A stretch of DNA of 50,431 nt from Acetofilamentum sp. (GCA_020720665.1 DYOF01000005.1:3070-53500), one strand, 5' to 3'; numbered from the stretch's first letter, positions 12,981 to 47,424 are shown. A program made the numbers and translations. Notes: generated by a model from the letters alone, not told the origin.

Positions 12981-13600
12981 TACTTCTCAATTAATATGTA
13001 TGAACCTTTTGAACCCGGGACGGATCCTTTAACTACAACAAGGTTATTCTCAGGAATAACTTTTATAACTCTCAGGTTTTGAATTTTAACTCGATTTCCG
13101 CCTGTTCTTCCTGCCATCCTCATTCCTTTAAAAACTCGTGAAGGATATGAAGAAGCCCCTAAAGAGCCGGGAGCTCTTAATCTATTGTGCTGCCCGTGCG
13201 TACTGTCGCCGACACCTCTGAAGTTATGTCTTTTTACAACTCCTTGGAAGCCTTTTCCTTTTGAATTGCCGATAACATCGACCCATTCATTTTCTTCGAA
13301 CATTTCGGCAGTGAGAACTTCTCCTAATTTGTATTCTTTGTTGTCATACAAAGAAAATTCGACGAGTTTTCGTTTAGGAGTTGTATCGGCATTTTTGAAA
13401 TGTCCTAATTCAGCTTTATTAGCTTTTTTTTCTTTTTTGTCGTCGAAGGCAATTTGAACTGCCTCATAACCGTCGTTTTCGACTGTTTTAACCTGTGTAA
13501 CAACACAAGGTCCGACTTCTAAAACAGTGCATGGAATACTATTTCCCTCGGCACTGAAGACGGATGTCATTCCGACTTTTTTTCCTATTAATCCGGCCAT
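12980..13600 (-). CDS. rplC: 50S ribosomal protein L3
   Basis: Ribosomal protein L3, 206 residues, an early-assembly protein that reaches toward the peptidyl transferase centre. It begins [20 protein letters not shown] and contains the extension signature [19 protein letters not shown], then [20 protein letters not shown] (about 125-160), typical of bacterial L3. It lies 25 bases after rpsJ and overlaps rplD by one base. Confidence 0.98.
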
Positions 13601-13625
13601 TGTTTAAATTTTTACCAGTAAATAA

Positions 13626-13931
13626 TCACACTTTAATTTCAACATCTACCCCGCTGGGTAATTCTAATTTCATTAAAGCATCAACGGTTTTTGGAGTTGA
13701 ACTGTAAATATCGATTAATCTTTTGAAAGCTGAAAGTTGAAATTGCTCTCTCGACTTTTTATTAACAAAAGTTGACCTTAATACAGTAAAGACTCTTTTT
13801 TTTGTGGGTAACGGGATAGGACCGCTGACAACTGCACCGGTTGCTTTAACTGTTTTTACGATTTTCTCGGCAGAATTATCGACCAAATTGTAATCGTATG
13901 ATTTTAATTTTATTCTAATTTTTTGTGCCAT
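13626..13931 (-). CDS. rpsJ: 30S ribosomal protein S10
   Basis: Ribosomal protein S10, 101 residues, part of the 30S head; it also serves as the NusE antitermination factor. It begins [20 protein letters not shown] and contains [20 protein letters not shown] and LKLPSG-like C-terminal sequence ([13 protein letters not shown]). Here it follows fusA after 22 bases, joining the str and S10 operons. A tuf gene is not present between them. Confidence 0.98.
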
Positions 13932-13953
13932 CTATTAAAAGCATTAATTATAT

Positions 13954-16068
13954 TTATACAAATATTTTTCCTGTTAATCTGTTAATTATATTTTCTGAAA
14001 TTCTTTTTTCGACTTCTCCGTAGTGAGAAAACTCCATTGTTGAAGAGGCTCTTCCCGAACTCAAAGTTCTTAGTATTGTAACATAACCGAACATTTCTGA
14101 AAGCGGTGAAGATGCTTTTATTATCTGAAGATGAGCTCTTTCTGATGTACCTTTTATTTTTGCTCTTCTTTTATTCAAATCAGAAACGATATCTCCCATA
14201 TATTCGGCAGGTGTTACAAGCTCAACATCCATAAACGGTTCTAACAAAATAGGTTCTGCTTTAATTGCTGCATTTCTGAATGCTTGTTTAGCAACTATCT
14301 CAAATGCTGTTTCGTCTGAAAATTCTTCACTATATGATCCGCCGATAAGTTCAATTTTCAAATTATCTAACGGATAACCTGTTAAAGGACCGTTATTCAT
14401 TACTTCTTTGAAAGATTTTTCAATGAACGGAATAAACTTTTTTGGAATAATCGAATCATTGGTTCGATTGATAAAAATGTAATTTTCTTCACCACTTGTG
14501 TTAAGCGGAGAAAGGATAACTTTAATTTCGGCAAATTTCCCTTTACCGCCGCTTTCTTTACTAAAAATTTCTGTATGCTCTACAGAAATCGTGAGTGCTT
14601 CTTTATATGAAACTTGTGGTTTCCCTTGGTTACACTTTACATTAAATTCTCTGTCTAAACGGTCGATTAATATTTCTAAATGAAGTTCACCCATCCCTGA
14701 AATAATTCTTTGACCGGTATTCATATCCGTTTTAACTTGGAAGGTTGGATCTTCTTCAGCCAATATCTGTAAGGAATTTGTTAGCTTATCAATATCTTTT
14801 TGTGTTTTGGGTTCAATAACTACTCCGATAACCGGTTCAGGAAATTTAATATTTTCTAATATGACTTGTTTGTGTTCTGAAGTGAGTGTATCACCGGTTT
14901 GAATATCTTTAAAACCGACAACGGCACAGATATCTCCGGCAAATACTTCTTCCTTCTGTATTTGTTTATTGGCATGCATTTGATAAATATTAGCCAATCT
15001 TACTCTTGAATTTGTACGAGGATTAAAAACTGTACTTTTTTCTTTAATTGTACCGGAATAGATTCTTAGATAAGCTAACTTTCCTGTAAACTTATCAGCA
15101 GTAATTTTAAATACTAATGCCGATAAGGGTTCATCTTTATCCGCTTTTCGTTCAACGTGGTCATCATTTTGCGGATTTACGCCTACAACGGGTGGTATGT
15201 CAACAGGGCTCGGCAAATAGTCAATCACAGCATCCAACAGCATTTGAATTCCTTTATTTTTGAAAGCCGAACCGCAAAATACCGGTATTATTTCTCTTTT
15301 TAATACTAATTTTCGTGCAACTTCTTTAAACTCTGAAACTGTTATTGATTCTCTGTTTTCAAAAAAACGCTCCATGATAATTTCATCATGCTCTATAACG
15401 CTTTCAATTAATTTCTCTCTCCATTCTTCAACCGATTCTTTCAAATCTTCAGGTATATCACTAACAGCATATTTTGTTCCGAAGAAATCATCGTTATTTA
15501 ACCAAGAATAAACTTTTCTCTCAATTAAATCTATAACTCCTGAGAAATTATCTTCATTGCCGACAGGTATTTGGAAAGGAACGGCATTTCCTGCTAATTT
15601 TTCTTTTATTTGCTCTACAACGCTATAAAAGTCTGCTCCTAAACGATCCATTTTATTAACGAAAGCGATTCTCGGAACTTTATATTTATCTGCTTGCCTC
15701 CAAACCGTTTCGGATTGCGGTTCAACACCTCCTACGGCACAGAAAACAGCAACGACACCGTCTAATACACGCAAGGAACGTTCGACTTCAACAGTAAAAT
15801 CGACATGTCCGGGAGTATCGATAATATTAATTTTATACTTTTGGTCGTTAACATTCCAGAATGTAGTTGTTGCAGCAGATGTAATGGTTATACCGCGTTC
15901 CTGCTCTTGCGCCATCCAATCCATGGTAGCTAAGCCGTCATGTACCTCACCGATTTTATAATTCACGCCGGTATAAAACAGTATCCTTTCGGTGGTTGTT
16001 GTTTTACCGGCATCAATGTGAGCCATGATACCAATGTTACGTGTATATTTTAAACTATCTGTTGCCAT
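13954..16068 (-). CDS. fusA: Elongation factor G
   Basis: Elongation factor G, the GTPase that drives translocation and ribosome recycling. It has 704 residues, the usual length. G-domain motifs are all present: [20 protein letters not shown] (P loop), [11 protein letters not shown] (switch I), DTPGHVDF (G3) and NKMD (G4). Domain IV/V segments include [20 protein letters not shown]. It lies 15 bases after rpsG in the str operon. Translation start [20 protein letters not shown] is the natural one. Confidence 0.98.
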
Positions 16069-36848: not shown

Positions 36849-37229
36849 ATGGAAAGTATTTATATCGATAAAACAAAAAAAACACCTTTAATAAATTTGA
36901 ACTTAAAGGAGAATATTTTTCAAATAAAAGGTCCTTCTTTTTCTGAAGATATTATTGAAGTATACGAACCTGTTATAAAATGGATAGATTCCGAAATACC
37001 TTTATTACAAAACGAACTGACTTGTGAATTGTATTTCACGGTTTTAAACAGTGCATCTCATAAAAAGATTTTTCAGATATTAATCATGTTAAATTCATAT
37101 ATGGATGACGGTAAAAAAATTAACGTCAAATGGTTTTATGATGAAGATGATGAAGATATTATGGAGATGGGCGAAGACTTAAATGAACTTATAAATATAC
37201 CTTTTGAATTAATTACGGTCAAAAATTGA
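36849..37229 (+). CDS. SiaC-family regulatory phosphoprotein (DUF1987)
   Basis: Protein of 126 residues matching the SiaC/DUF1987 family: MESIYIDKTKKTPLINLNLK at the start, then GPSFSEDIIEVYEPVIKWID. The segment LYFTVLNSASHKKIFQILIM holds a Ser-rich patch (67-70) that aligns with the phosphorylation site of SiaC. In Pseudomonas aeruginosa the kinase SiaB and the PP2C phosphatase SiaA set the phosphorylation state of SiaC. I start at the ATG at 36849 rather than an upstream TTG. The gene is convergent with the siaB-like gene and overlaps its end by 11 bases. The partner protein of SiaC here is not known; no diguanylate cyclase is in the window. Confidence 0.85.
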   Translation: MESIYIDKTKKTPLINLNLKENIFQIKGPSFSEDIIEVYEPVIKWIDSEIPLLQNELTCELYFTVLNSASHKKIFQILIMLNSYMDDGKKINVKWFYDEDDEDIMEMGEDLNELINIPFELITVKN

Positions 37230-38385
37230 TTACAACTTGTAATATAAAATATGATGTTTTTGAATTGATTTTCTTAAAAACATAATTCATTTCGGCATTA
37301 TTTTTCAATTTCATATCAATTAAGCTTATATCCGGTCTTTTTGCAACATCATCACAAAAAAATTTCTTTAAATAATCTTTAATTTTAGACAAGCTTTTTA
37401 TTTCCGTTTTATTTATTAAATCAATTTTGTTGCCCAAAGTTAGAGCTTTCCCGTTTAAAATTAAATTACCTGCTGTTAAAAATAACTTGTTATTATTCTT
37501 GCTTAGTAAAAAAACACCCCGACTGTTTTCCGCAATATCTGAATTTTCATCATGATGAAACTTATCGGCATAATGAATGATATTTTTAAGCATTATAACG
37601 GTTAACTGAAATACTTTTTCCTTTATTTTTAATCCGCCGATTGAATGAGATTCTATTATCGGCAGAATACTTTGTAAATTCTCAAAGGCAAAAGATCCGT
37701 TAAAATTCAGTAAAATATTTTCTTTGTTTAGTAATAAATGAAATTTTGAAATTCTTTTTAATGAAACTAAATCATTCGGCTCGTTTTCATCATAATTATC
37801 CTTTAATATTAAACGAATTTGATAATAATAATAAGAATATGTGTCATTAATTTTTTGAAAATCGAATTTAAACCGTCCGTTTGTTCTTCTAATCATTGTA
37901 ATTAAGCCTATACCTCCGCCTCCTTTTTCTGAAACTTTTCCGTCAAGTAATGCTTTATGATATAAAGTTTTTAGTTCTTCGGGTGTACTTTCTTTTAATT
38001 TTGTCAGATATTCTTTTAATTTTTTAATGTTTAGATTTTCAATAATGTTTGCTGTTGTAATATAAATAGAATCAATTGTTTTCTGAATTACAAACAAACT
38101 CTCTTTTGCTATATCTTCGTCTTCGGGAATATCTTTATGTCTGATAACATTTTGGATGGATTCTATTAACAAATAGGATATTCTTTTTCGGTTATTATAA
38201 GCATCTTCATCATTCACAAACTTAGCATCAGTAAGATTCAGAATATTAACGGTTATATTTTCAGAAAAATTACCTCTGTAAACATATTCAATATAATCGC
38301 TTGTAACTGACTTGGTCATATCATAAGCTAACTCCATTTGAGTCTTACTTATATCTTCAACGATATTTGAGTTTTCTGATTTCAT
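37219..38385 (-). CDS. Tandem SiaB-like kinase (DUF6272)
   Basis: Protein of 388 residues, about twice the usual length of SiaB. The N-terminal copy (1-195) has a GHKL N-box, LLIESIQNVIRH (Glu75, Asn79), and a glycine-rich lid GGGGIGLI (155-162). The C-terminal copy (about 213-388) has the same layout, beginning FHLLLNKENILLNFNGSFAF. Its N-box reads VIMLKNIIHYA, keeping Asn268 but with Ile264 in place of the Glu, and its glycine-rich motif is replaced by PDISLIDMKL. I infer an active kinase followed by a pseudokinase. It is third in the operon after the Ig-like chaperone and MORN genes, and probably phosphorylates the SiaC-like protein. Confidence 0.75.
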   Translation of the reverse strand: MKSENSNIVEDISKTQMELAYDMTKSVTSDYIEYVYRGNFSENITVNILNLTDAKFVNDEDAYNNRKRISYLLIESIQNVIRHKDIPEDEDIAKESLFVIQKTIDSIYITTANIIENLNIKKLKEYLTKLKESTPEELKTLYHKALLDGKVSEKGGGGIGLITMIRRTNGRFKFDFQKINDTYSYYYYQIRLILKDNYDENEPNDLVSLKRISKFHLLLNKENILLNFNGSFAFENLQSILPIIESHSIGGLKIKEKVFQLTVIMLKNIIHYADKFHHDENSDIAENSRGVFLLSKNNNKLFLTAGNLILNGKALTLGNKIDLINKTEIKSLSKIKDYLKKFFCDDVAKRPDISLIDMKLKNNAEMNYVFKKINSKTSYFILQVVINF

Positions 38386-38408
38386 ATTTTTTATATCTGA
38401 TTATATTT

Positions 38409-39491
38409 TCAGAGTTTTTCTTTTCCTATAAGATTACCCTTATTATCATAACTCTTCCAAATACCTGTTTTCATATTATTTTTATACTTTCCTTTCTGAT
38501 TCAACACTCCGTTGTTATCATAAAAAAACCACTCTCCTTCTTGCTTCCCGTTGACATAACTCCCTTTTTGTTTAAGATTCTTATTCGGGTAGAAAACTTT
38601 CCATTCTCCTTCAAACTCATTATTAAAATAATTTCCTACTGTGTATAAAGTTTCATCCGGATAAAATGTTTTCCACTCCCCTTCTCTTTGATTGTTTTTA
38701 TAATTTCCTGTTTCTGCAAGCTCCCCGTTTTTGTAATATACTTTGTAGATTCCGGAAATTTTATCTTTTTCATAAAAATAATCGGCACTTAAAGTTCCGT
38801 CAGTGTTAAAAGCAGTTAACTTTCCGTTTAGTTTACCGGTTTCATAGATACATTTTCTTTGAATTTTACCTGATTTATAAAATACATATAAAGTATCTTC
38901 TAAAAGATTATCAACTTTTTTCCCTCGGTAATTAATTTCACCGGTTTCATAATAATATTCCCACAAACCGTCAATTATATTATTTTTAAATGTGTAAATT
39001 TCTTCTAATGTTTCGTCCTCTCTGAATTTTTCTAATTTTCCGTTCAGTATTCCCGAATTATATTCTCCTCTCACTTCTATTTTACCGTTCGGGTAATATG
39101 TAGTTATTATTCCGTGAGGTAAATTATTTTTATAAAATCCGGTTTGTTGTATTGTTCCGGTTTCATAATAATGTATAAACATTCCGTTTTTATTGCCTGA
39201 ATCAAAGTTTAATTTCGACTTTAAAATTCCTGATTCATAATATAAAAGCCATTCGCCTTGTAATTTATTTTTTTCAAACTTTCCTTCCTGAATTTTAACG
39301 CCGTTTTTATTATAATAAGTATATAAACCTTGTTTTATTGTGTCTGAATTTAAAATTAATGCAAAATAATCCTCTTTAACTCTGTCTTTATTACCGGAAT
39401 AAAAGGTCTGTATATGTATCTGACCATACGAATTTATTACATTAAAAAATGTAAAAAAAAATATCAATATATTCCTTTGTTTTATATACAC
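38409..39491 (-). CDS. Secreted MORN-repeat protein
   Basis: Protein of 360 residues with a signal peptide (about 1-23, ending NSYGQ) and about eleven MORN-like repeats of 20-24 residues, with consensus YYxNGxxxxxGxYxNxxxxG(E/L)W, for example FYPNKNLKQKGSYVNGKQEG. Automated annotation often labels such proteins YwqK-family antitoxin; the signal peptide points to the envelope instead. The start is GTG at 39491, directly after the TAA of the Ig-like chaperone gene (TAAGTG), so translation is probably coupled. No in-frame ATG exists in the N-terminal region. The function is unknown; MORN repeats often mediate protein or lipid contact. Confidence 0.8.
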   Translation of the reverse strand: MYIKQRNILIFFFTFFNVINSYGQIHIQTFYSGNKDRVKEDYFALILNSDTIKQGLYTYYNKNGVKIQEGKFEKNKLQGEWLLYYESGILKSKLNFDSGNKNGMFIHYYETGTIQQTGFYKNNLPHGIITTYYPNGKIEVRGEYNSGILNGKLEKFREDETLEEIYTFKNNIIDGLWEYYYETGEINYRGKKVDNLLEDTLYVFYKSGKIQRKCIYETGKLNGKLTAFNTDGTLSADYFYEKDKISGIYKVYYKNGELAETGNYKNNQREGEWKTFYPDETLYTVGNYFNNEFEGEWKVFYPNKNLKQKGSYVNGKQEGEWFFYDNNGVLNQKGKYKNNMKTGIWKSYDNKGNLIGKEKL

Positions 39492-40316
39492 TTACTTATT
39501 ATTTTTATCTATGATAAGCAAGCGTTCTTTCAACCGCGTACCTTTTATTGATGTATTTTTTCCGTAATCTAATAGTGCAACTAAGGAATATTCACCCGGA
39601 GGAAGAGTCGAAGGAATAAAAAATAATATTTCTCTTTGAGCATCAGGAAAAGAATCAAAAAAAATGGGGTCAAATTCATATTCTTCACCGGTATTCAAAT
39701 CTGCTGCTATATATATCAATTTACATTTTTCGATTGTTACACCTCCATTTTCAATAAGTACCGAAAACATTCTGTGATTCTCTTTTGTACTGATTTTTTC
39801 GGTTAATTGATTTACAGATAGTTTTGCTTCCGGTTTTGAAAGCGGTGTTCGGTAAACTTGAACCGCAATTCTGCCTCCTATATTAACAGCTGCCCCCAAA
39901 CTTTGATCGGCATCAAAACTACTTTTAACTTTTGTTGTTTGCACATAAATCATTGCCCATCTTGTTTTATAATCTTCATCCGGTGCTTGCATAGTAACTT
40001 TTATTTCGGTTTTTTCACCCGGATTTAAAGTGAAGAAATTATTATCTAAAGTAATCCAATCCGCACAAGAATTTTTTGTCGAGTTTTTATTAGCAACCAT
40101 TTTATTTCCGTCTTTATCAATTAAAAAATCAACTATTGATATTGAAAACGGAGTTTGAAAATTTGAATGGTTTTTTACATACAATATTTTAGACTGAGAC
40201 TCGCCGGGGTCTATTGAGTATTCAATTTTAACAGGTGAAACCTCAAAATCTTGTCCGTAAAAAAATGAACTTGCAGTATTCAATAAAATAATCAAAAACA
40301 GTTTAATTTTATACAT
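39492..40316 (-). CDS. PapD-like periplasmic Ig-fold protein, candidate chaperone
   Basis: Protein of 274 residues with a signal peptide (about 1-21, ending FFYGQ). The first domain, about 23-150, is Ig-like and starts FEVSPVKIEYSIDPGESQSK, followed by ILYVKNHSNFQTPFSISIVD. It resembles the N-terminal domain of PapD-type pilus chaperones and their relatives. A second beta domain (about 170-270) contains FSVLIENGGVTIEKCKLIYI and LPPGEYSLVALLDYGKN. It is first in the operon with the MORN and siaB-like genes, and divergent from the PP2C gene. A role as chaperone for the two small proteins at 42454 and 43235 is inferred from neighbourhood. It could instead be an independent Ig-fold envelope protein. 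Confidence 0.65.
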   Translation of the reverse strand: MYKIKLFLIILLNTASSFFYGQDFEVSPVKIEYSIDPGESQSKILYVKNHSNFQTPFSISIVDFLIDKDGNKMVANKNSTKNSCADWITLDNNFFTLNPGEKTEIKVTMQAPDEDYKTRWAMIYVQTTKVKSSFDADQSLGAAVNIGGRIAVQVYRTPLSKPEAKLSVNQLTEKISTKENHRMFSVLIENGGVTIEKCKLIYIAADLNTGEEYEFDPIFFDSFPDAQREILFFIPSTLPPGEYSLVALLDYGKNTSIKGTRLKERLLIIDKNNK

Positions 40317-40355
40317 TATTTTGGTGTTTAAATAAAAATATCTAAATTAGATTTC

Positions 40356-40363
40356 CAAATTTA
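40356..40363 (-). promoter_or_regulatory. -7-like element before the Ig-like chaperone operon
   Basis: Minus-strand TAAATTTG matches TAnnTTTG about 40 bases before the ATG at 40316. There is no TTG at the -33 distance. The rest of the divergent spacer shows no clear box for the PP2C gene. Confidence 0.4.
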
Positions 40364-40412
40364 GAAAAAAATTATTAATTTACCTAACTATTAAAACCAA
40401 AAAAACACCGAA

Positions 40413-42386
40413 TTGAAAACCTCTTTTATTTTTTACGATAAAAAGATACACATTTCTCTGAAATATAATCTTTTAAATATAACCATAAGAATTTTATTAA
40501 AAAAATTCCTTTCTCTTGTATTTTTTTTAATTTTCTTTGAACTTTCATACAGCCAACTCAATGAAAAAGATATAAGCCGATTAAATTCTATTATTGAATC
40601 TGCCGAAAATTTTGTTCAAAAAGACGAAATAGGAAAAGCTGCTAATATGTACTATAAAGCAGGCTTATTGTGTTTTGAAAAAAATGATAATAAAAAAGCT
40701 ATCCCATATTTAAAGGAAGCTGCCAAATTACACGGTGAAATAAAGGAATTTAAAAAAGTAATGGCAATATACAGCAATTTAGGTTTGTTATATGCCAATA
40801 TGGACGAATATGATAAGTCCTTATCTTATTTTCAACAAAGCCTTATTATCAGAAAAAATTTCGGCAATCAAGAAGAAATAGCATCCGGGCTGCTTGACCT
40901 TTCATATGTTTTGGGTATTCAAAATAACTCCAAAGATGCTATTATCAACACCATAAAAGCATTGGAAATATCAACGGAATTAAAAAATTCAAAATTAGTT
41001 TTAATCAGTTACAGAATGTTAGCCGATAATTACCAAAAAATAGGTAACGAACAAAAAGCCGCTGAATATTTGGACAAATATGCATCTTACCGCCAACATT
41101 TTGAAAAAACAAAAACTGAAGAATTAGTAAGCGAAGAACGTATAAAATCTATTGCCGAATTAAGTATAAAGGATGCAGAAGCTCGTGCAAAACAATTAGA
41201 ACTTGAATTAATCAGAACAAATAAAGAACTGGCAGAAGATACTCTTTCACGTAAAATAAAAGCCAGAGATGACTCATTAGCCTTAGTTCAACAAATGTTA
41301 TTCAATGATAGCCTTAAAATTGAATCATATAAGAAAGACAAGGAACTTGCACGTATTCAAAGAGCACAAGAAATTGCTGACCAAAGACTTTATTTAATTG
41401 TCTTACTCGGAGTTACAGTACTTGTTGCTACAATTGCATTTGGTTTGTTGCTGATCAACAAAAGAAGAAAAAAACATAATGCGATACTTGCGGCAAATAA
41501 TAAAAAAATTGCCGACCAAAATAAAAATATTGAATTTAAAAATGCTGAGTTAAGTGATGCATTTCAACGTATTGCCGACCAAAACAAAGATATAAATTCA
41601 AGTATTGATTATGCTGTTAATATTCAAAAATCACTTTTACCCAAACAAGAAGATTTGAATAAATACATCGAAGAATCATTTATTTTGTTTAAACCGAGAG
41701 ATAAAGTAAGCGGGGATTTTTATTGGTTTAAAAAAACAAATACATTTATTAATGAAACCGAAACGCAAACAAAAATATTTATTTCAGCAATCGACTGTAC
41801 CGGTCACGGAGTTCCGGGAGCATTCCTTTCTATGCTGAGTTATAACTTATTAGATGACATTGTTGAGCAAAAAAGAATATTTACACCATCAGAAATATTA
41901 AATAAATTGCATCAAGGTGTCCGAAAATCTTTAAGACAATCTGAAACGAATAACCGAGACGGAATGGATATGGCTCTGTGTGCATACGACCCTCAAAAAA
42001 ACATATTAGAATATGCAGGTGCTAAAAATCCGCTTATCTATATTAAAGAGAAAAAAGTACATCGATTAAAAGGGGATGTAAAACCTATAGGAGGAGTTAT
42101 ACATGAAAAAAGTGAAAAAACGAATTTCCAAAATAATACAATTCTGATAGACAGCCCGATAACCTGTTATATTTTTTCTGACGGTTTTGCCGATCAAATC
42201 GGTGGAGAAACCGGTCGAAAATTAATGACAAAATATTTCCGTAATTTATTAACTGAAATTTATTTAAAACCAATGAAAGAACAAAAAGATATTTTGACAA
42301 TGTTCTTGAAAAAATGGATGGGTAAAACAGACCAAATAGATGACATTCTTGTAATAGGATTTAAAATAAACCCTAATAAAATTTGA
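40413..42386 (+). CDS. TPR-transmembrane PP2C phosphatase (SpoIIE/SiaA-like)
   Basis: Protein of 657 residues if started at the TTG at 40413. No in-frame ATG exists before the signal-like segment LVFFLIFFELSYSQ, so the true start is uncertain. TPR repeats (about 45-235) include AIYSNLGLLYANMDEYDKSL. A coiled coil leads to one membrane helix near 326-347 (YLIVLLGVTVLVATIAFGLL). The C-terminal PP2C/SpoIIE domain (about 400-655) has all main motifs: GDFYWF, AIDCTGHGVPGA, DGMDMAL, SDGFADQ and QIDDILV, with the metal-binding Asp residues. It would dephosphorylate the SiaC-like protein, sensing something through its periplasmic TPR part. It is divergent from the Ig-like chaperone operon. Confidence 0.85.
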   Translation: MKTSFIFYDKKIHISLKYNLLNITIRILLKKFLSLVFFLIFFELSYSQLNEKDISRLNSIIESAENFVQKDEIGKAANMYYKAGLLCFEKNDNKKAIPYLKEAAKLHGEIKEFKKVMAIYSNLGLLYANMDEYDKSLSYFQQSLIIRKNFGNQEEIASGLLDLSYVLGIQNNSKDAIINTIKALEISTELKNSKLVLISYRMLADNYQKIGNEQKAAEYLDKYASYRQHFEKTKTEELVSEERIKSIAELSIKDAEARAKQLELELIRTNKELAEDTLSRKIKARDDSLALVQQMLFNDSLKIESYKKDKELARIQRAQEIADQRLYLIVLLGVTVLVATIAFGLLLINKRRKKHNAILAANNKKIADQNKNIEFKNAELSDAFQRIADQNKDINSSIDYAVNIQKSLLPKQEDLNKYIEESFILFKPRDKVSGDFYWFKKTNTFINETETQTKIFISAIDCTGHGVPGAFLSMLSYNLLDDIVEQKRIFTPSEILNKLHQGVRKSLRQSETNNRDGMDMALCAYDPQKNILEYAGAKNPLIYIKEKKVHRLKGDVKPIGGVIHEKSEKTNFQNNTILIDSPITCYIFSDGFADQIGGETGRKLMTKYFRNLLTEIYLKPMKEQKDILTMFLKKWMGKTDQIDDILVIGFKINPNKI

Positions 42387-42453: not shown

Positions 42454-43047
42454 ATGAAAAAATTATCTATTTCTTTTTTTGCAGTCATACTTTCAGTAGG
42501 ACTTGCTTTATCCCAACCGATTAAAGATTTCGGAATCATTCCCGTTGGCGTAACTTTAAATTCAATTTTACGATTAAATATTACCAGCGGTGGTAATATA
42601 GAGTATGTTGTTAATACAATTGACCAATATACTAACGGATTTGAAGCACAAGCAACCGGTGCTTATGTTACAACATTTACCGTTGCATCTTCTACAAATT
42701 TTGCAGTTGATTTATACGGTGATAATGCAAACTTTATAGGAGTAGAAAATAACGGAAATACGTTTGCAATAGGCAAGTTAGGTTATCATACAACATACAA
42801 CGGTTCAGGTGCAGCAGCAAATTATACGGTAACTCCGGCATCAGGTTCTGAAGTCTCTGTTACAAACGCAGCCGTAACCATTGTTCAACCAAACGGAGCT
42901 GCTGTTATTGCAGGAAGTACAGGTGTAAATACCTTTCAAATACATTGGGAGTTGGGTACTCCCGGTTTGGGTGCAGGTAATTTAATCGGACTTTCTTCTG
43001 ACAGATATACCGTAAATGTACTTTTAGACTTGCGTGCTGCTTTATAA
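42454..43047 (+). CDS. Small secreted beta-rich protein, candidate subunit 1
   Basis: Protein of 197 residues with a clear signal peptide (about 1-20, ending LALSQ). The rest is rich in Thr, Val, Asn and Gly and lacks Cys, as in secreted beta-sandwich subunits. The segment ILRLNITSGGNIEYVVNTID followed by QYTNG recurs in the next gene as ARLTIESGGSVEFIFNSF and EYENG. It ends with a beta strand, SSDRYTVNVLLDL, similar in style to the last strand of pilin-like or DUF4402-type domains. It is followed by a strong terminator, which suggests high expression from its own unit. I do not recognise a named family. Confidence 0.65.
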   Translation: MKKLSISFFAVILSVGLALSQPIKDFGIIPVGVTLNSILRLNITSGGNIEYVVNTIDQYTNGFEAQATGAYVTTFTVASSTNFAVDLYGDNANFIGVENNGNTFAIGKLGYHTTYNGSGAAANYTVTPASGSEVSVTNAAVTIVQPNGAAVIAGSTGVNTFQIHWELGTPGLGAGNLIGLSSDRYTVNVLLDLRAAL

Positions 43048-43234: not shown

Positions 43235-43756
43235 ATGGTCAGATATATTTTGATTGCAATTATTTTATTCATTTTTTTTACATCTGAAAGTCAAAATCAA
43301 ACTACTGCAAGACTCACTATTGAATCCGGAGGTTCCGTTGAATTTATTTTTAATTCATTTTTTGAATACGAAAACGGAATTTCATATAATGATTGGACAA
43401 AATTGGGGGTTTATTTTATAGATACAATAGCCGGTGTACCTACTGCTATGACTTGGCAATTAGATGTGAACGCAGATGACGCACAAATCATAGGAGTATT
43501 AGGAAATTTGCCGCTGCAAACAATAGAACTTTCAGTCAGCGGAGATCCCGGACCTACTTATTTTGCAGGACGATTACAATTATTAAAAAGTAACCAAAGT
43601 ATTGTAGAAAACGGACCTCAAACGAATTTAATATTACCGAGTCTGACGAATGTGTTTGTCTCCTACCATTGCGGGGAAACCGCTCCGTTTAAATTATTCG
43701 GAAAACCCGCCGATTATTATAGTGTTGATATTGTTTATACTTTATCTGAATATTAG
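43235..43756 (+). CDS. Small secreted beta-rich protein, candidate subunit 2
   Basis: Protein of 173 residues with a short signal peptide (about 1-20, ending SESQ) and no recognised family. It is related to the preceding gene: ARLTIESGGSVEFIFNSFFE and YENGISYNDW align with the first protein near its residues 36-65, and both end in a DxYxVxV type strand (PADYYSVDIVYTLSEY). The two therefore look like paralogous structural subunits. It lies between a terminator and the barrel protein gene, 92 bases upstream of the latter. Confidence 0.6.
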   Translation: MVRYILIAIILFIFFTSESQNQTTARLTIESGGSVEFIFNSFFEYENGISYNDWTKLGVYFIDTIAGVPTAMTWQLDVNADDAQIIGVLGNLPLQTIELSVSGDPGPTYFAGRLQLLKSNQSIVENGPQTNLILPSLTNVFVSYHCGETAPFKLFGKPADYYSVDIVYTLSEY

Positions 43757-43848: not shown

Positions 43849-46800
43849 ATGAATAACACAATAAGATATCTGTTCATCTTTTTTATTCTGATAATCTTTT
43901 CACTGAAGTTATATTCACAAGAGAATTATTATAATAAAGACATTGAAATTAGATACCTTAAAGATAAAGTGGATGTTGCTCTCGGAAAGTCCTTTTTCAA
44001 TATTCTGCTGATTAAAAACAATTCAAATTCTGAAAAAACGTTCAACGTTCAAATTAATACACCTAAAGGATGGGAGCTTATAGGTAATTCATTTGAACAA
44101 ATTACCCTTCAGCCGATGGGGAGTTTAAATCTTCCGGTAAGAGTTGCAATTGCAAAAGATGCCAAAGGAGGTGTAGCATACGCTTTAGTTGCTATTATTA
44201 CTGATATAAACGGAGTAATTTTAGACAATGTTTATAGCTTCGTAAATATACCCGTTGAATCAAAAATTGAGATAGTTACTTCAAAACAATCAAAATATAT
44301 CGACCATAAAACTCTTAGTTCGGCATTTTCTGTTCAATTAAAAAACACAGGTAATATTGATGAAATTATTAATGTTAAAATGGTAGCCGATAATTCAATT
44401 TATTTTGAAGAAACAGAAGAAAATGTGTTAATTGAAGACATTTTGGTCGCATCTAAAACAGAAGAAATAAAAACCTATGAAGTAAAACTAAAGAAAGATA
44501 TCGATGTAAAAAAATTCAAATACCATAGAATTAACCTGACTTTCAATATGCAGGATACCATAATTAATAAGTCTGTATGGTTTAATTACTTAGATTGGAA
44601 ATTTGACAACATATATGTAAATACGATAAAACCGCTGAATTTAGAATTAACTGCATATGATATTTTAGGTGCAGATCGTATAAAATACCGAATTCATACA
44701 TTCGGGAAAATTTTATTGAAGAAAAACAGAGAAATATACTATTCTCTCCACAATCAAAACCAATATGAACAAGGAAATAATCTTTGGAAAAACAGCTACA
44801 CTGAATTTGTTTATAAAGCACCTAAAACAACTGTAACATTAGGTGATTTTCATAAACAATATGAACAAAGCAATTTCGGACGAGGCATTTCTTTTTCCCA
44901 AAAAATTAATGAAAACTTTAAAGTTTCAGGTTTATATACAAGAAATTTATTAAGACCTGTTGATAACTACGGCGGTGCATTTGAATACAACTCCAACAAG
45001 ATTTTTTCATTTGAATTAGGCGGAGCTTCATCAAATGAGATTACTCAAAACAGCAAATCTTATTTAGCTTATTCCGGACTGACTACTCATATTTTTAAAA
45101 AAACAATATCCTTATTATATGCTAACAGTTTAACAAATTACAACTTAACAAATAGTAATTTGAGCACAAAAGGATGGAGTTATAATGCATCATTTAACGG
45201 AAAACTTTTTAATACGACAGTAAATATAAACAGCAGATACGGCTCTCCCTATTATTCAGGTTATATAAAAGGCAGGATGTTTACGAACGCAACAAGTTAT
45301 ACGGAATTGTCAAAAAAAAGTAATTTAAATTTATCCTATTTTTTATCAAACTACCGACCTCAGTATTTTGTTGACGAAGCTGTATATTCAGACCGTTTTA
45401 ATAATATGCAAAAATTAGAAATTACATACAATCGCTATTTAAAAGATAATTTTAGTTTATTTGCAGGACCTGTTTTAGACCAACAAAAAACAAATAATTT
45501 TACATCATTAAATCCCGAATCAGTTTTTAACACCTATTCATATCAAGGACAATTCGGAATAAGGTATAATCAACCATATTATCATAATTCTGTTCAAGTT
45601 TCGGCTCTATACGGATTAACACAAATAAATAAATATTCTGAATTAATTAATGACAGTCCGGTAATAATTAACACCAACAATCTTCTTTTTAAAATAGGAG
45701 AACTCCGATTCGGCTTCAAGAAAAACAACTTTCATTTGCACATTGTTTATCATTTCGGACCCTTTAACATCATTCAACAGTTCAGTTATTTTTACACATC
45801 ATACTTTCCAAAATCCATACATATAATACCGGCATATGAACAATACTTTTTTAATAAAAAAGTCAGATTCTCTGCAACAGGAATCGTAATTTCAAATCTT
45901 ACATCTAAAAACAACAGTTTTAATCTAAATTCAACTATCGACTGGGAAATTGGTAAAGGCTGGAATATTAAATTATTAAATTCATCCTCTGTTCAACAAT
46001 CTAAATTCGGAAACGGATCAAACTACTATTCGTCAAGTTATTTTGAATTAAGAATATTAAAATCATTTAATATCAATCATCCGAGAATAAAATTTTATAA
46101 TTATAAAACCGTATATTATAAAGACTTAAACGGAAACAGAATACATGATGCCAACGAACCCGGAATTTCTCAGGTTTTGTCGGATATAAAACGAGCAAAT
46201 CCGGAAGCAGATACAAAAAATCCGAACTACAACAACGAATTTTATACCAATGATTTAATTTCAAATTCGGAAGGTTTTATTGAATATAACAATATTCCGG
46301 AAGGAGAATATATTTTAAAATATTCACCGCAAAATTTGAATATCGGAACTTTTGAAACCGAATATGTAGAACGTGAATTTAAAATTGATAAAGATACCGT
46401 TTTCCATATACCCTTCATCGAACGGAATAAATTATTCGGAAAAATTAATCTCAATCGCACAAAACATTCAGCATTAGGTGATATCCCCTTAGATAATATA
46501 AAAATAATTGTTGAAGGAAATGAAAAAACTTATTCAACTTTAACTGATAAAGAAGGAAATTTCGAATTATATATTCCGGTAGCCGATTATTATAAAGTAA
46601 GAATTACAAATATTTTTAAAGAACATTTTAATTTAAGGCAAGAGTATTATATTGTTAAATTTAACGGTTACAAACAATTTGAAATTAGTTTTGAATTTGA
46701 TGAAAAAGATAGAAAAATCGAATTTGACCCCAACGATTTCCTTATTGATGACGATGTTACCGATAACAATTTTTCATTCGATGATATTAAAATTATAAAA

Positions 46801-47424
46801 CAAACAAATTTAAGGGGAGTTGTAAAAGATGCAAATTCTTTAATTCCGCTACATGCAACAGTTTCAATTTTTAAAAATAATACGAACGATTTAATTTCAG
46901 AAACGGCATCAAGTAAACGAACCGGTGTTTATTTCACCTCATTTTTTGCCGGTGAAGATTACAGCATCAAAGCAGAGACGGAAGGTTATTGGACATATCG
47001 TGCAAATTTGAACATCAATCAAGTTACAACCTTTGAAAATGTTACACATGATATTTTAATAAAAAAAATAAATCTGGATGACGAAATAAAAACAGATAAT
47101 TTAAAATTCAATTCAGAAAAGTCAAACTTATCTCCTCTGGCTATGGCTGAATTAGATAATATACTATCCATGTTTTTTGCAAATCCGTCTGTTCATATTG
47201 AAATCTCAGGACATACCGATAATGTTGAAGCATTATTAGTAAGCCCCCTTGAATTATCAAAAGCAAGAGCTTCTGCAGTAGCTTCTTATCTGGTTAAAAA
47301 CGGTTTAGATGAAAAAAGAATTAAAATAAAAGTATTAGGAAACACTTCTCCTGCAACTTTAGATGATTCGGAAACCGGAAGAGCACGAAACAGAAGAGTT
47401 GAATTAAGAGTTGCTGCATATTAA
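43849..47424 (+). CDS. Outer-membrane beta-barrel protein with Ig, SdrD-B and OmpA domains, candidate usher
   Basis: Protein of 1191 residues with a signal peptide (about 1-24, ending LKLYSQE). Two Ig-like domains follow (about 25-125, with NVQINTPKGWELIGNSFEQI; about 135-240). From about 250 to 750 the sequence alternates aromatic and polar residues in many short strands (for example TTVTLGDFHKQYEQSNFGRG), as in a large outer-membrane barrel. Near 754-772 is YYKDLNGNRIHDANEPG, an SdrD-B-like repeat. Further carboxypeptidase-regulatory-like domains are seen near 862-950 and 987-1060. The C-terminal OmpA domain (about 1085-1191) has EISGHTDNV, LSKARASAV and GRARNRRVELRV and should bind peptidoglycan. 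With the Ig-like chaperone and two small beta proteins nearby, an usher-like secretion or anchoring role is plausible but unproven. Confidence 0.65.
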   Translation: MNNTIRYLFIFFILIIFSLKLYSQENYYNKDIEIRYLKDKVDVALGKSFFNILLIKNNSNSEKTFNVQINTPKGWELIGNSFEQITLQPMGSLNLPVRVAIAKDAKGGVAYALVAIITDINGVILDNVYSFVNIPVESKIEIVTSKQSKYIDHKTLSSAFSVQLKNTGNIDEIINVKMVADNSIYFEETEENVLIEDILVASKTEEIKTYEVKLKKDIDVKKFKYHRINLTFNMQDTIINKSVWFNYLDWKFDNIYVNTIKPLNLELTAYDILGADRIKYRIHTFGKILLKKNREIYYSLHNQNQYEQGNNLWKNSYTEFVYKAPKTTVTLGDFHKQYEQSNFGRGISFSQKINENFKVSGLYTRNLLRPVDNYGGAFEYNSNKIFSFELGGASSNEITQNSKSYLAYSGLTTHIFKKTISLLYANSLTNYNLTNSNLSTKGWSYNASFNGKLFNTTVNINSRYGSPYYSGYIKGRMFTNATSYTELSKKSNLNLSYFLSNYRPQYFVDEAVYSDRFNNMQKLEITYNRYLKDNFSLFAGPVLDQQKTNNFTSLNPESVFNTYSYQGQFGIRYNQPYYHNSVQVSALYGLTQINKYSELINDSPVIINTNNLLFKIGELRFGFKKNNFHLHIVYHFGPFNIIQQFSYFYTSYFPKSIHIIPAYEQYFFNKKVRFSATGIVISNLTSKNNSFNLNSTIDWEIGKGWNIKLLNSSSVQQSKFGNGSNYYSSSYFELRILKSFNINHPRIKFYNYKTVYYKDLNGNRIHDANEPGISQVLSDIKRANPEADTKNPNYNNEFYTNDLISNSEGFIEYNNIPEGEYILKYSPQNLNIGTFETEYVEREFKIDKDTVFHIPFIERNKLFGKINLNRTKHSALGDIPLDNIKIIVEGNEKTYSTLTDKEGNFELYIPVADYYKVRITNIFKEHFNLRQEYYIVKFNGYKQFEISFEFDEKDRKIEFDPNDFLIDDDVTDNNFSFDDIKIIKQTNLRGVVKDANSLIPLHATVSIFKNNTNDLISETASSKRTGVYFTSFFAGEDYSIKAETEGYWTYRANLNINQVTTFENVTHDILIKKINLDDEIKTDNLKFNSEKSNLSPLAMAELDNILSMFFANPSVHIEISGHTDNVEALLVSPLELSKARASAVASYLVKNGLDEKRIKIKVLGNTSPATLDDSETGRARNRRVELRVAAY

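Follow-up and report, generated by a model that had tools for sequence, protein, structure and literature searches.

What does a SiaABC-type partner switch serve in a bacterium that lacks the enzyme such switches are known to control? The question is raised by a locus of Acetofilamentum sp. (GCA_020720665.1 DYOF01000005.1:3070-53500), which lies in a 50,431-nucleotide stretch (the window, to whose full length all positions refer) of contig C200 in a 2.6-Mb assembly that is 99% complete. In Pseudomonas aeruginosa, SiaB phosphorylates SiaC at T68, SiaA removes the phosphate, and unphosphorylated SiaC activates SiaD; the SiaC target described in the literature is a diguanylate cyclase (PMC7647112, PMC8457831). 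CupA fimbriae are required there for the SiaABCD aggregation phenotype (PMC7647112). In the window, genes for counterparts of SiaA, SiaB (here SiaB2), and SiaC form a block with genes for two small subunits (SUB1 and SUB2), a large usher-like outer-membrane barrel, an exported immunoglobulin (Ig)-like protein (CHAP), and an exported MORN_2-repeat protein (MORN). On balance, and with little more than even confidence, we favor the view that the three Sia proteins are a dedicated partner switch of the SiaABC type and that it is coupled to a chaperone-usher-like pilus system, with an output other than a cyclase.

A domain search found no GGDEF domain in the whole genome. Of 60 relatives compared (Bacteroidales and Bacteroidota metagenome assemblies), 38 carry SiaC, and all 38 lack GGDEF as well; the single GGDEF among the 60 genomes is in one without SiaC. 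Given that the usual target enzyme is absent from these Bacteroidales, the switch probably serves the pilus via another target. A preliminary description of the locus had stated that no cyclase is encoded in it, and this can now be extended to the entire genome. It had also placed a SiaC-family protein, a SiaB-like kinase, and a PP2C phosphatase with TPR and membrane segments within 6 kb, and profiles, motifs, and coordinates agree on all three (Table 1).

The SiaC protein matches PF09345 with E 1.6e-32 (112.1 bits, cut-off 24.5). Its open reading frame (ORF) opens at TTG 36837, and the start conserved in orthologs (MESIY) is ATG 36849, from which residues are numbered here. At the position of P. 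aeruginosa T68, the window protein and all block orthologs have a serine (motif NS[AVI]SHKK), so placed that Ser68 is the predicted phosphosite. In the comparison with P. aeruginosa SiaC, N67 is retained and most SiaD-contact positions are changed (e.g., Y65, I71, M75, D79, R103, D114). SiaA has a SpoIIE match (E 1e-15), TPRs, and hydrophobic segments at about residues 23-41 and 328-346. Its PP2C domain aligns over 286 residues with the solved structure of SiaA from P. aeruginosa (6k4e, E 1e-34) and retains the metal-site motifs GDFYWF, DCTGHGVPGA, GMDMAL, SDGFADQ, and QIDDI; the metal-binding aspartates are present, and the motifs are invariant among linked homologs. PPM phosphatases are switched by dimerizing coiled-coil linkers below diverse sensors (PMC12143880), and the helical stretch between the transmembrane segment and the PP2C domain of SiaA appears to be a linker of this kind.

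SiaB2 scores 167.7 bits against the NCBIfam profile SiaB_fam_kinase (NF038262; cut-off 85) and contains DUF6272 twice. The motifs of domain 1 are intact (the E-x-x-x-N motif, as ESIQN, and the glycine box GGGGIG). Domain 2 has lost both the glycine box (PDISLIDM) and the catalytic glutamate, and is predicted to be a pseudokinase. A degenerate domain 2 occurs in 16 of 33 tandem SiaB proteins, all in one clade (97 by the Shimodaira-Hasegawa-like approximate likelihood ratio test, SH-aLRT) that comprises the block-linked genes and one G030 gene adjoining a contig end; the remaining 17 retain the domain 2 motifs, small deviations aside. Judged from this tree, the degeneration happened once, in the surface-linked lineage, and the glycine box was probably lost first, because a member from family f63 that lacks the box still has the glutamate. 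Elsewhere in this genome, SiaB, SiaB, and SiaC are fused in a single gene (L147:9465-11009, G000:C16), which supports the pairing of tandem SiaB proteins with SiaC. This fusion of two DUF6272 domains and SiaC is followed by genes for an ion-channel-domain protein and a polyphosphate kinase. At another locus (L150:8572-10932, G000:C183), a tandem SiaB gene is followed by three consecutive SiaC genes.

Strand and spacing place one switch enzyme in each of two putative operons. On the minus strand, CHAP, MORN, and SiaB2 follow one another with gaps of 0 and 23 bp; the operon of kinase, MORN protein, and Ig-like chaperone that had been proposed for them thus fits the layout, and it is the name "chaperone" that the sequence supports weakly (see below). 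On the plus strand, SiaA comes first and is followed, at spacings of 67, 187, and 92 bp, by SUB1, SUB2, and the barrel. SiaC (plus) and SiaB2 (minus) converge with an 11-bp overlap, and SiaA and CHAP diverge with 96 bp between ORFs. Because several orthologs start later, the first ~20 codons of the SiaA ORF may be untranslated, in which case more than 96 bp would separate SiaA and CHAP. An Rfam scan gave a tRNA as its sole match, and a sigma-70 promoter scan was uninformative (73 sites, 64 expected).

The order SiaC / SiaB2-MORN-CHAP / SiaA-SUB1-SUB2(-barrel) is kept in the genus and in G014, G018, and G020 as far as contigs reach (that of G018 ends after SUB2), and the outer flanks differ among relatives. 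In G003 and G004, SiaC is ~12 kb away from the barrel, still on the same contig, and in f63 SiaC, SiaB2, MORN, CHAP, the barrel, and SiaA occur together in a different arrangement. Conservation of gene order through family f1 and beyond argues that the linkage is not due to chance. HtpG, itself a GHKL ATPase, was considered as a part of the system and rejected, because it does not adjoin the block in G014, G018, and G020. In the G002 assembly, two ORFs stand in place of one for both the barrel and HtpG (L125:2117-5692 and 13145-15198), which may reflect either sequencing error or decay.

The phosphatase is linked to the surface genes far beyond f1. A SiaA ortholog adjoins SUB or CHAP in nine family-level groups (f1, f11, f18, f19, f25, f63, f81, f90, f115), and in all of these except f90 the phosphatase gene immediately precedes those of the subunits and barrel (in f18, as a 3' piece only). 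The same is true of five loci from metagenome-assembled genomes (MAGs; L177, L179, L180, L183, L184), with two small ORFs intervening in L179. The phosphatase is usually divergent from CHAP-MORN. Where the barrel is elsewhere (G044, G252, G109, G210, G030), SiaA is still divergent from CHAP, and from CHAP-MORN where the contig reaches MORN; MORN is linked to CHAP in many relatives. On the barrel tree, PP2C linkage requires 5 changes (12.9 in shuffles) and the deepest branches are without it, so the phosphatase probably joined an older surface system once. Two other candidate regulators were set aside: a TPR histidine kinase near the f25 locus is not operonic (the SiaA ortholog, with CHAP-MORN, is ~18 kb off), and a PP2C gene beside SUB1 in G030 (L129) is not the SiaA ortholog, which is with CHAP-MORN on another contig.

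Co-occurrence of the regulatory and surface genes, a check suggested in the preliminary description, was assessed in 295 genomes of the order. SiaC is present in 122 of them and a member of the barrel family in 45. Where the barrel is close (E < 1e-200), SiaC is never missing (23 of 23 genomes); of the 272 others, 99 have it (Fisher p 4e-10, only indicative because the relatedness of genomes is ignored). For SiaA orthologs, eight of the genomes tested gave scores of 790-928 bits, and each of the eight has the surface locus, whereas the best of 14 SiaC-bearing controls that lack the barrel reaches 550 bits; weaker scores were obtained for G038 (586) and G037 (551; 70% complete, contig cut). The SiaC ortholog scores 159-210 bits in block genomes and no more than 97 in those members of f1 that have no block. 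The f1 members without the barrel (G015, G016, G017, G019) have neither the SiaC ortholog nor a degenerate SiaB2, and close relatives without the barrel also lack orthologs of SiaA, SiaB, and SiaC. On these comparisons, the Sia switch is inherited together with the pilus-like surface system in Bacteroidales.

Table 1. Features of the switch and of the adjoining surface system in the window
Feature	Position	Strand	Basis
SiaC-family regulatory phosphoprotein; predicted phosphosite Ser68, motif LNSASHKKIFQIL	36849..37229	+	PF09345; alignment to solved SiaC 6kko/6k4f
SiaB2, tandem SiaB-family protein; domain 1 intact kinase, domain 2 predicted pseudokinase	37219..38385	-	DUF6272 x2, SiaB_fam_kinase, motifs, tree
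MORN, exported MORN_2-repeat protein	38409..39491	-	MORN_2 E 3e-35, 8 stretches
CHAP, exported Ig-like periplasmic protein, chaperone-like by position	39492..40316	-	weak WxLIP/PapD_N-type Ig matches
SiaA-like phosphatase; signal/transmembrane segment, periplasmic TPRs, coiled coil, transmembrane segment, cytoplasmic PP2C (SpoIIE)	40413..42386	+	profiles, 6k4e alignment
SUB1, pilin-like subunit	42454..43047	+	AlphaFold model and PDB fold matches
SUB2, second small subunit, distantly like SUB1	43235..43756	+	alignment to SUB1
Usher-like outer-membrane barrel; N-terminal and post-barrel Ig-like domains, C-terminal OmpA peptidoglycan-binding domain	43849..47424	+	OmpA E 2.8e-16, model

Profile searches of SUB1 and SUB2 against solved structures and Pfam gave nothing useful, and fold comparison alone helped. 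The AlphaFold model of SUB1 (predicted local distance difference test, pLDDT, 84.5) is best matched in the PDB by the filament proteins TLP-1a/b (Z 9.5 over 161-162 residues), followed by archaic, alternative, and classical chaperone-usher pilins (CsuA/B, CfaE, FimG; Z 6-7). SUB2 is 19% identical to SUB1, with GG and Y positions common to both. In the barrel model (pLDDT 82.4; predicted template modeling score 0.53), about 25 strands form the barrel and a clear OmpA domain lies at the C-terminal end; Foldseek matches the model to FimD/PapC with E 8e-11 to 4e-8, and the nearest structure is MtrB (Z 20.4), followed by FimD (15.1) and PapC (14.9). The profile search returned no Pfam usher match for it. 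CHAP matches WxLIP at 3e-5, and PapD_N is marginal (2 of 15 members, best 0.0042). The system resembles chaperone-usher pili (Fim, Pap, Csu, CFA/I) and TLP-1 (PDB 9ikj, 9ikk) in its pilin-like subunit fold, large usher-like barrel, and periplasmic Ig-like protein, but differs in the N-terminal Ig-like and C-terminal OmpA domains of the barrel, in having no sequence match to PapC or pilins, and in a chaperone profile nearer WxLIP. "Chaperone-usher-like pilus" is therefore a reasoned reading rather than a demonstrated membership. A second, distant subunit-barrel-CHAP locus, without any Sia gene, is found in two genus members (L145:3525-9104 and L146; MORN in L145).

With P. aeruginosa SiaABCD, the switch shares a PP2C membrane phosphatase, a SiaB-family kinase, an anti-sigma-antagonist-like phosphoprotein with a phosphosite at position 68, and a genetic tie to adhesion. 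It departs from SiaABCD in having no SiaD/GGDEF, a TPR periplasmic sensor, a tandem kinase with a dead second domain, serine instead of threonine, a changed SiaD-binding face, and a location among surface-structure genes; all three proteins fall below the NCBIfam cut-offs for P. aeruginosa equivalogs (SiaA 199.8/700, SiaB 59.8/225, SiaC 82.3/150). A second comparison is with FimS of Porphyromonas gingivalis, whose periplasmic TPR sensor controls fimbriae (PMC11053733); a FimS profile weakly matches SiaA residues 51-363 (5e-8). FimS/FimR likewise has a periplasmic TPR sensor on a membrane signaling protein, although FimS has a histidine kinase output where SiaA has PP2C, and the fimbriae under its control are of a different kind, the FimA type. 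The RsbU/RsbW/RsbV and SpoIIE switches also combine a PPM phosphatase (sensor-driven via a coiled-coil linker in RsbU), a kinase, and a phosphorylatable antagonist (PMC12143880), whereas here there is no linked sigma factor and SiaC takes the place of the STAS protein. A literature search on DUF1987/DUF6272 in Bacteroidetes returned nothing relevant, the main "SiaC" matches being to an unrelated sialidase.

Taken together, P. aeruginosa SiaABCD, coiled-coil switching of PPM phosphatases, and FimS suggest that SiaA senses the periplasm and sets the phosphorylation of SiaC, and that SiaC acts on a cytoplasmic partner. In such a scheme, the TPR domain of SiaA would read the periplasm, perhaps the state of CHAP or of the subunits encoded beside it, and pass the signal via the coiled coil to the cytoplasmic PP2C domain. 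Domain 1 of SiaB2 would phosphorylate SiaC at Ser68, the dead domain 2 may act as a dock or dimer half, and SiaA would remove the phosphate. Once unphosphorylated, SiaC would tune the output of the pilus by binding a target in the cytoplasm other than a diguanylate cyclase. A more specific version is possible, although we would sooner bet against it: a SiaC switch that is independent of cyclic di-GMP, has a SiaB made up of kinase and pseudokinase, and is reserved for a distinct chaperone-usher-like pilus of Bacteroidota, in which the periplasmic TPRs sense assembly intermediates and SiaC gates pilus production via a new class of target.

Several observations weigh against coupling of this kind. 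The block encodes no transcription factor, and no other SiaC target was found in it. Surface genes occur without adjoining Sia genes in older barrel branches (f8, f27, f30, f47, f48, f50, f55, f66, f104), from which it follows that the surface system does not need the switch. SiaB2/SiaC linkage proper is limited to f1 and f63, with a different SiaC nearby or none elsewhere, and G038 has only a weak, unlinked SiaA. It is also possible that the many parallel SiaC, SiaB, and PP2C genes of the genome cross-talk. The preliminary description had held that surface genes appearing widely without the regulatory set would tell against control of the surface structure. What was found is divided: the older branches lack adjoining Sia genes, and the switch was joined to one large clade of the surface system. 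Control itself accords with the intact SiaABC-type set and with a strong evolutionary link that includes genes lying apart in the same genome; these would also accord with sensing of the surface state, or with both.

The genome totals bear on this choice. The counts are 14 for SiaC, 11 for DUF6272 (SiaB-type) domains, and 23 for SpoIIE (or about 22 PP2C domains, since one match seems to have been split in two), making the locus one module in a large network; neither this setting, as one of about a dozen SiaC modules, nor the tandem kinase had been mentioned in the preliminary description. Elsewhere in the genome, two SiaC genes of the same clade as that of the window lie beside a TPR-PP2C gene (L243:108-7327, G000:C59) and near five small ORFs that are bacteriohemerythrin-like by eye. 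A canonical triad of PP2C (with a GAF/PAS sensor), SiaB, and SiaC (L148:6837-10422, G000:C199) precedes the gene of an ABC transporter that has a TerB-like domain. With so many modules through which a signal could spread, the pilus might be the input, with SiaA reading conditions in the periplasm or at the surface (subunit load, contact) and SiaC reporting to a cell-wide Sia network that acts on, for example, adhesion physiology. We regard this as rather unlikely, though deserving of serious attention: the tightest partners of SiaA are the genes for periplasmic CHAP and MORN, even with subunits and barrel elsewhere, and SiaC is cytosolic and cannot touch the barrel. However, SiaA is the first gene of the putative subunit-barrel operon and SiaB2 the last of the putative CHAP-MORN operon, which suggests co-expression and feedback that a pure sensor would not need.

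It is improbable that the phosphatase alone belongs to the surface system, with the nearby SiaC and SiaB2 serving the general network and being neighbors by descent. PP2C linkage is indeed much wider than SiaB2/SiaC linkage, and the SiaC that neighbors the locus in f25, f81, L179, and L180 (the last two from MAGs) is of a second, different subfamily (SH-aLRT 100). This suggests that SiaC reached the locus more than once, with the caution that its frequent neighbor is dapF, so that it may be there for other reasons. SiaC beside dapF (L179:13968-15223 and L180:13560-14787) recurs near the barrel or SiaA-CHAP-MORN in several families, and at L235:6576-7811 SiaC lies beside a 259-amino-acid gene of dapF size. 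In f1, however, SiaC and SiaB2 orthologs are present or absent together with the barrel, the moved SiaC of G003 and G004 stays on the barrel contig, and f63 has the whole set together. The family resemblance to P. aeruginosa SiaA, SiaB, and SiaC might bring to mind an orthodox SiaABCD pathway whose diguanylate cyclase is encoded far away or was overlooked. This is very improbable given the absence of GGDEF from the genome and the SiaC-bearing relatives, the change of most SiaD-contact residues, and the equivalog scores.

These Bacteroidales have many SiaC, SiaB, and PP2C genes, yet no diguanylate cyclase. The role of SiaC in them should be easiest to work out at this locus, because the suspected pilus-like output is encoded beside SiaC and co-inherited with it. 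The apparent single loss of the second kinase domain yields a sharp, testable prediction. If a dedicated switch coupled to the pilus is the correct reading, the system would be a regulated relative of chaperone-usher assembly in Bacteroidota, where the fimbriae that have been studied (FimA, Mfa1) are built differently.

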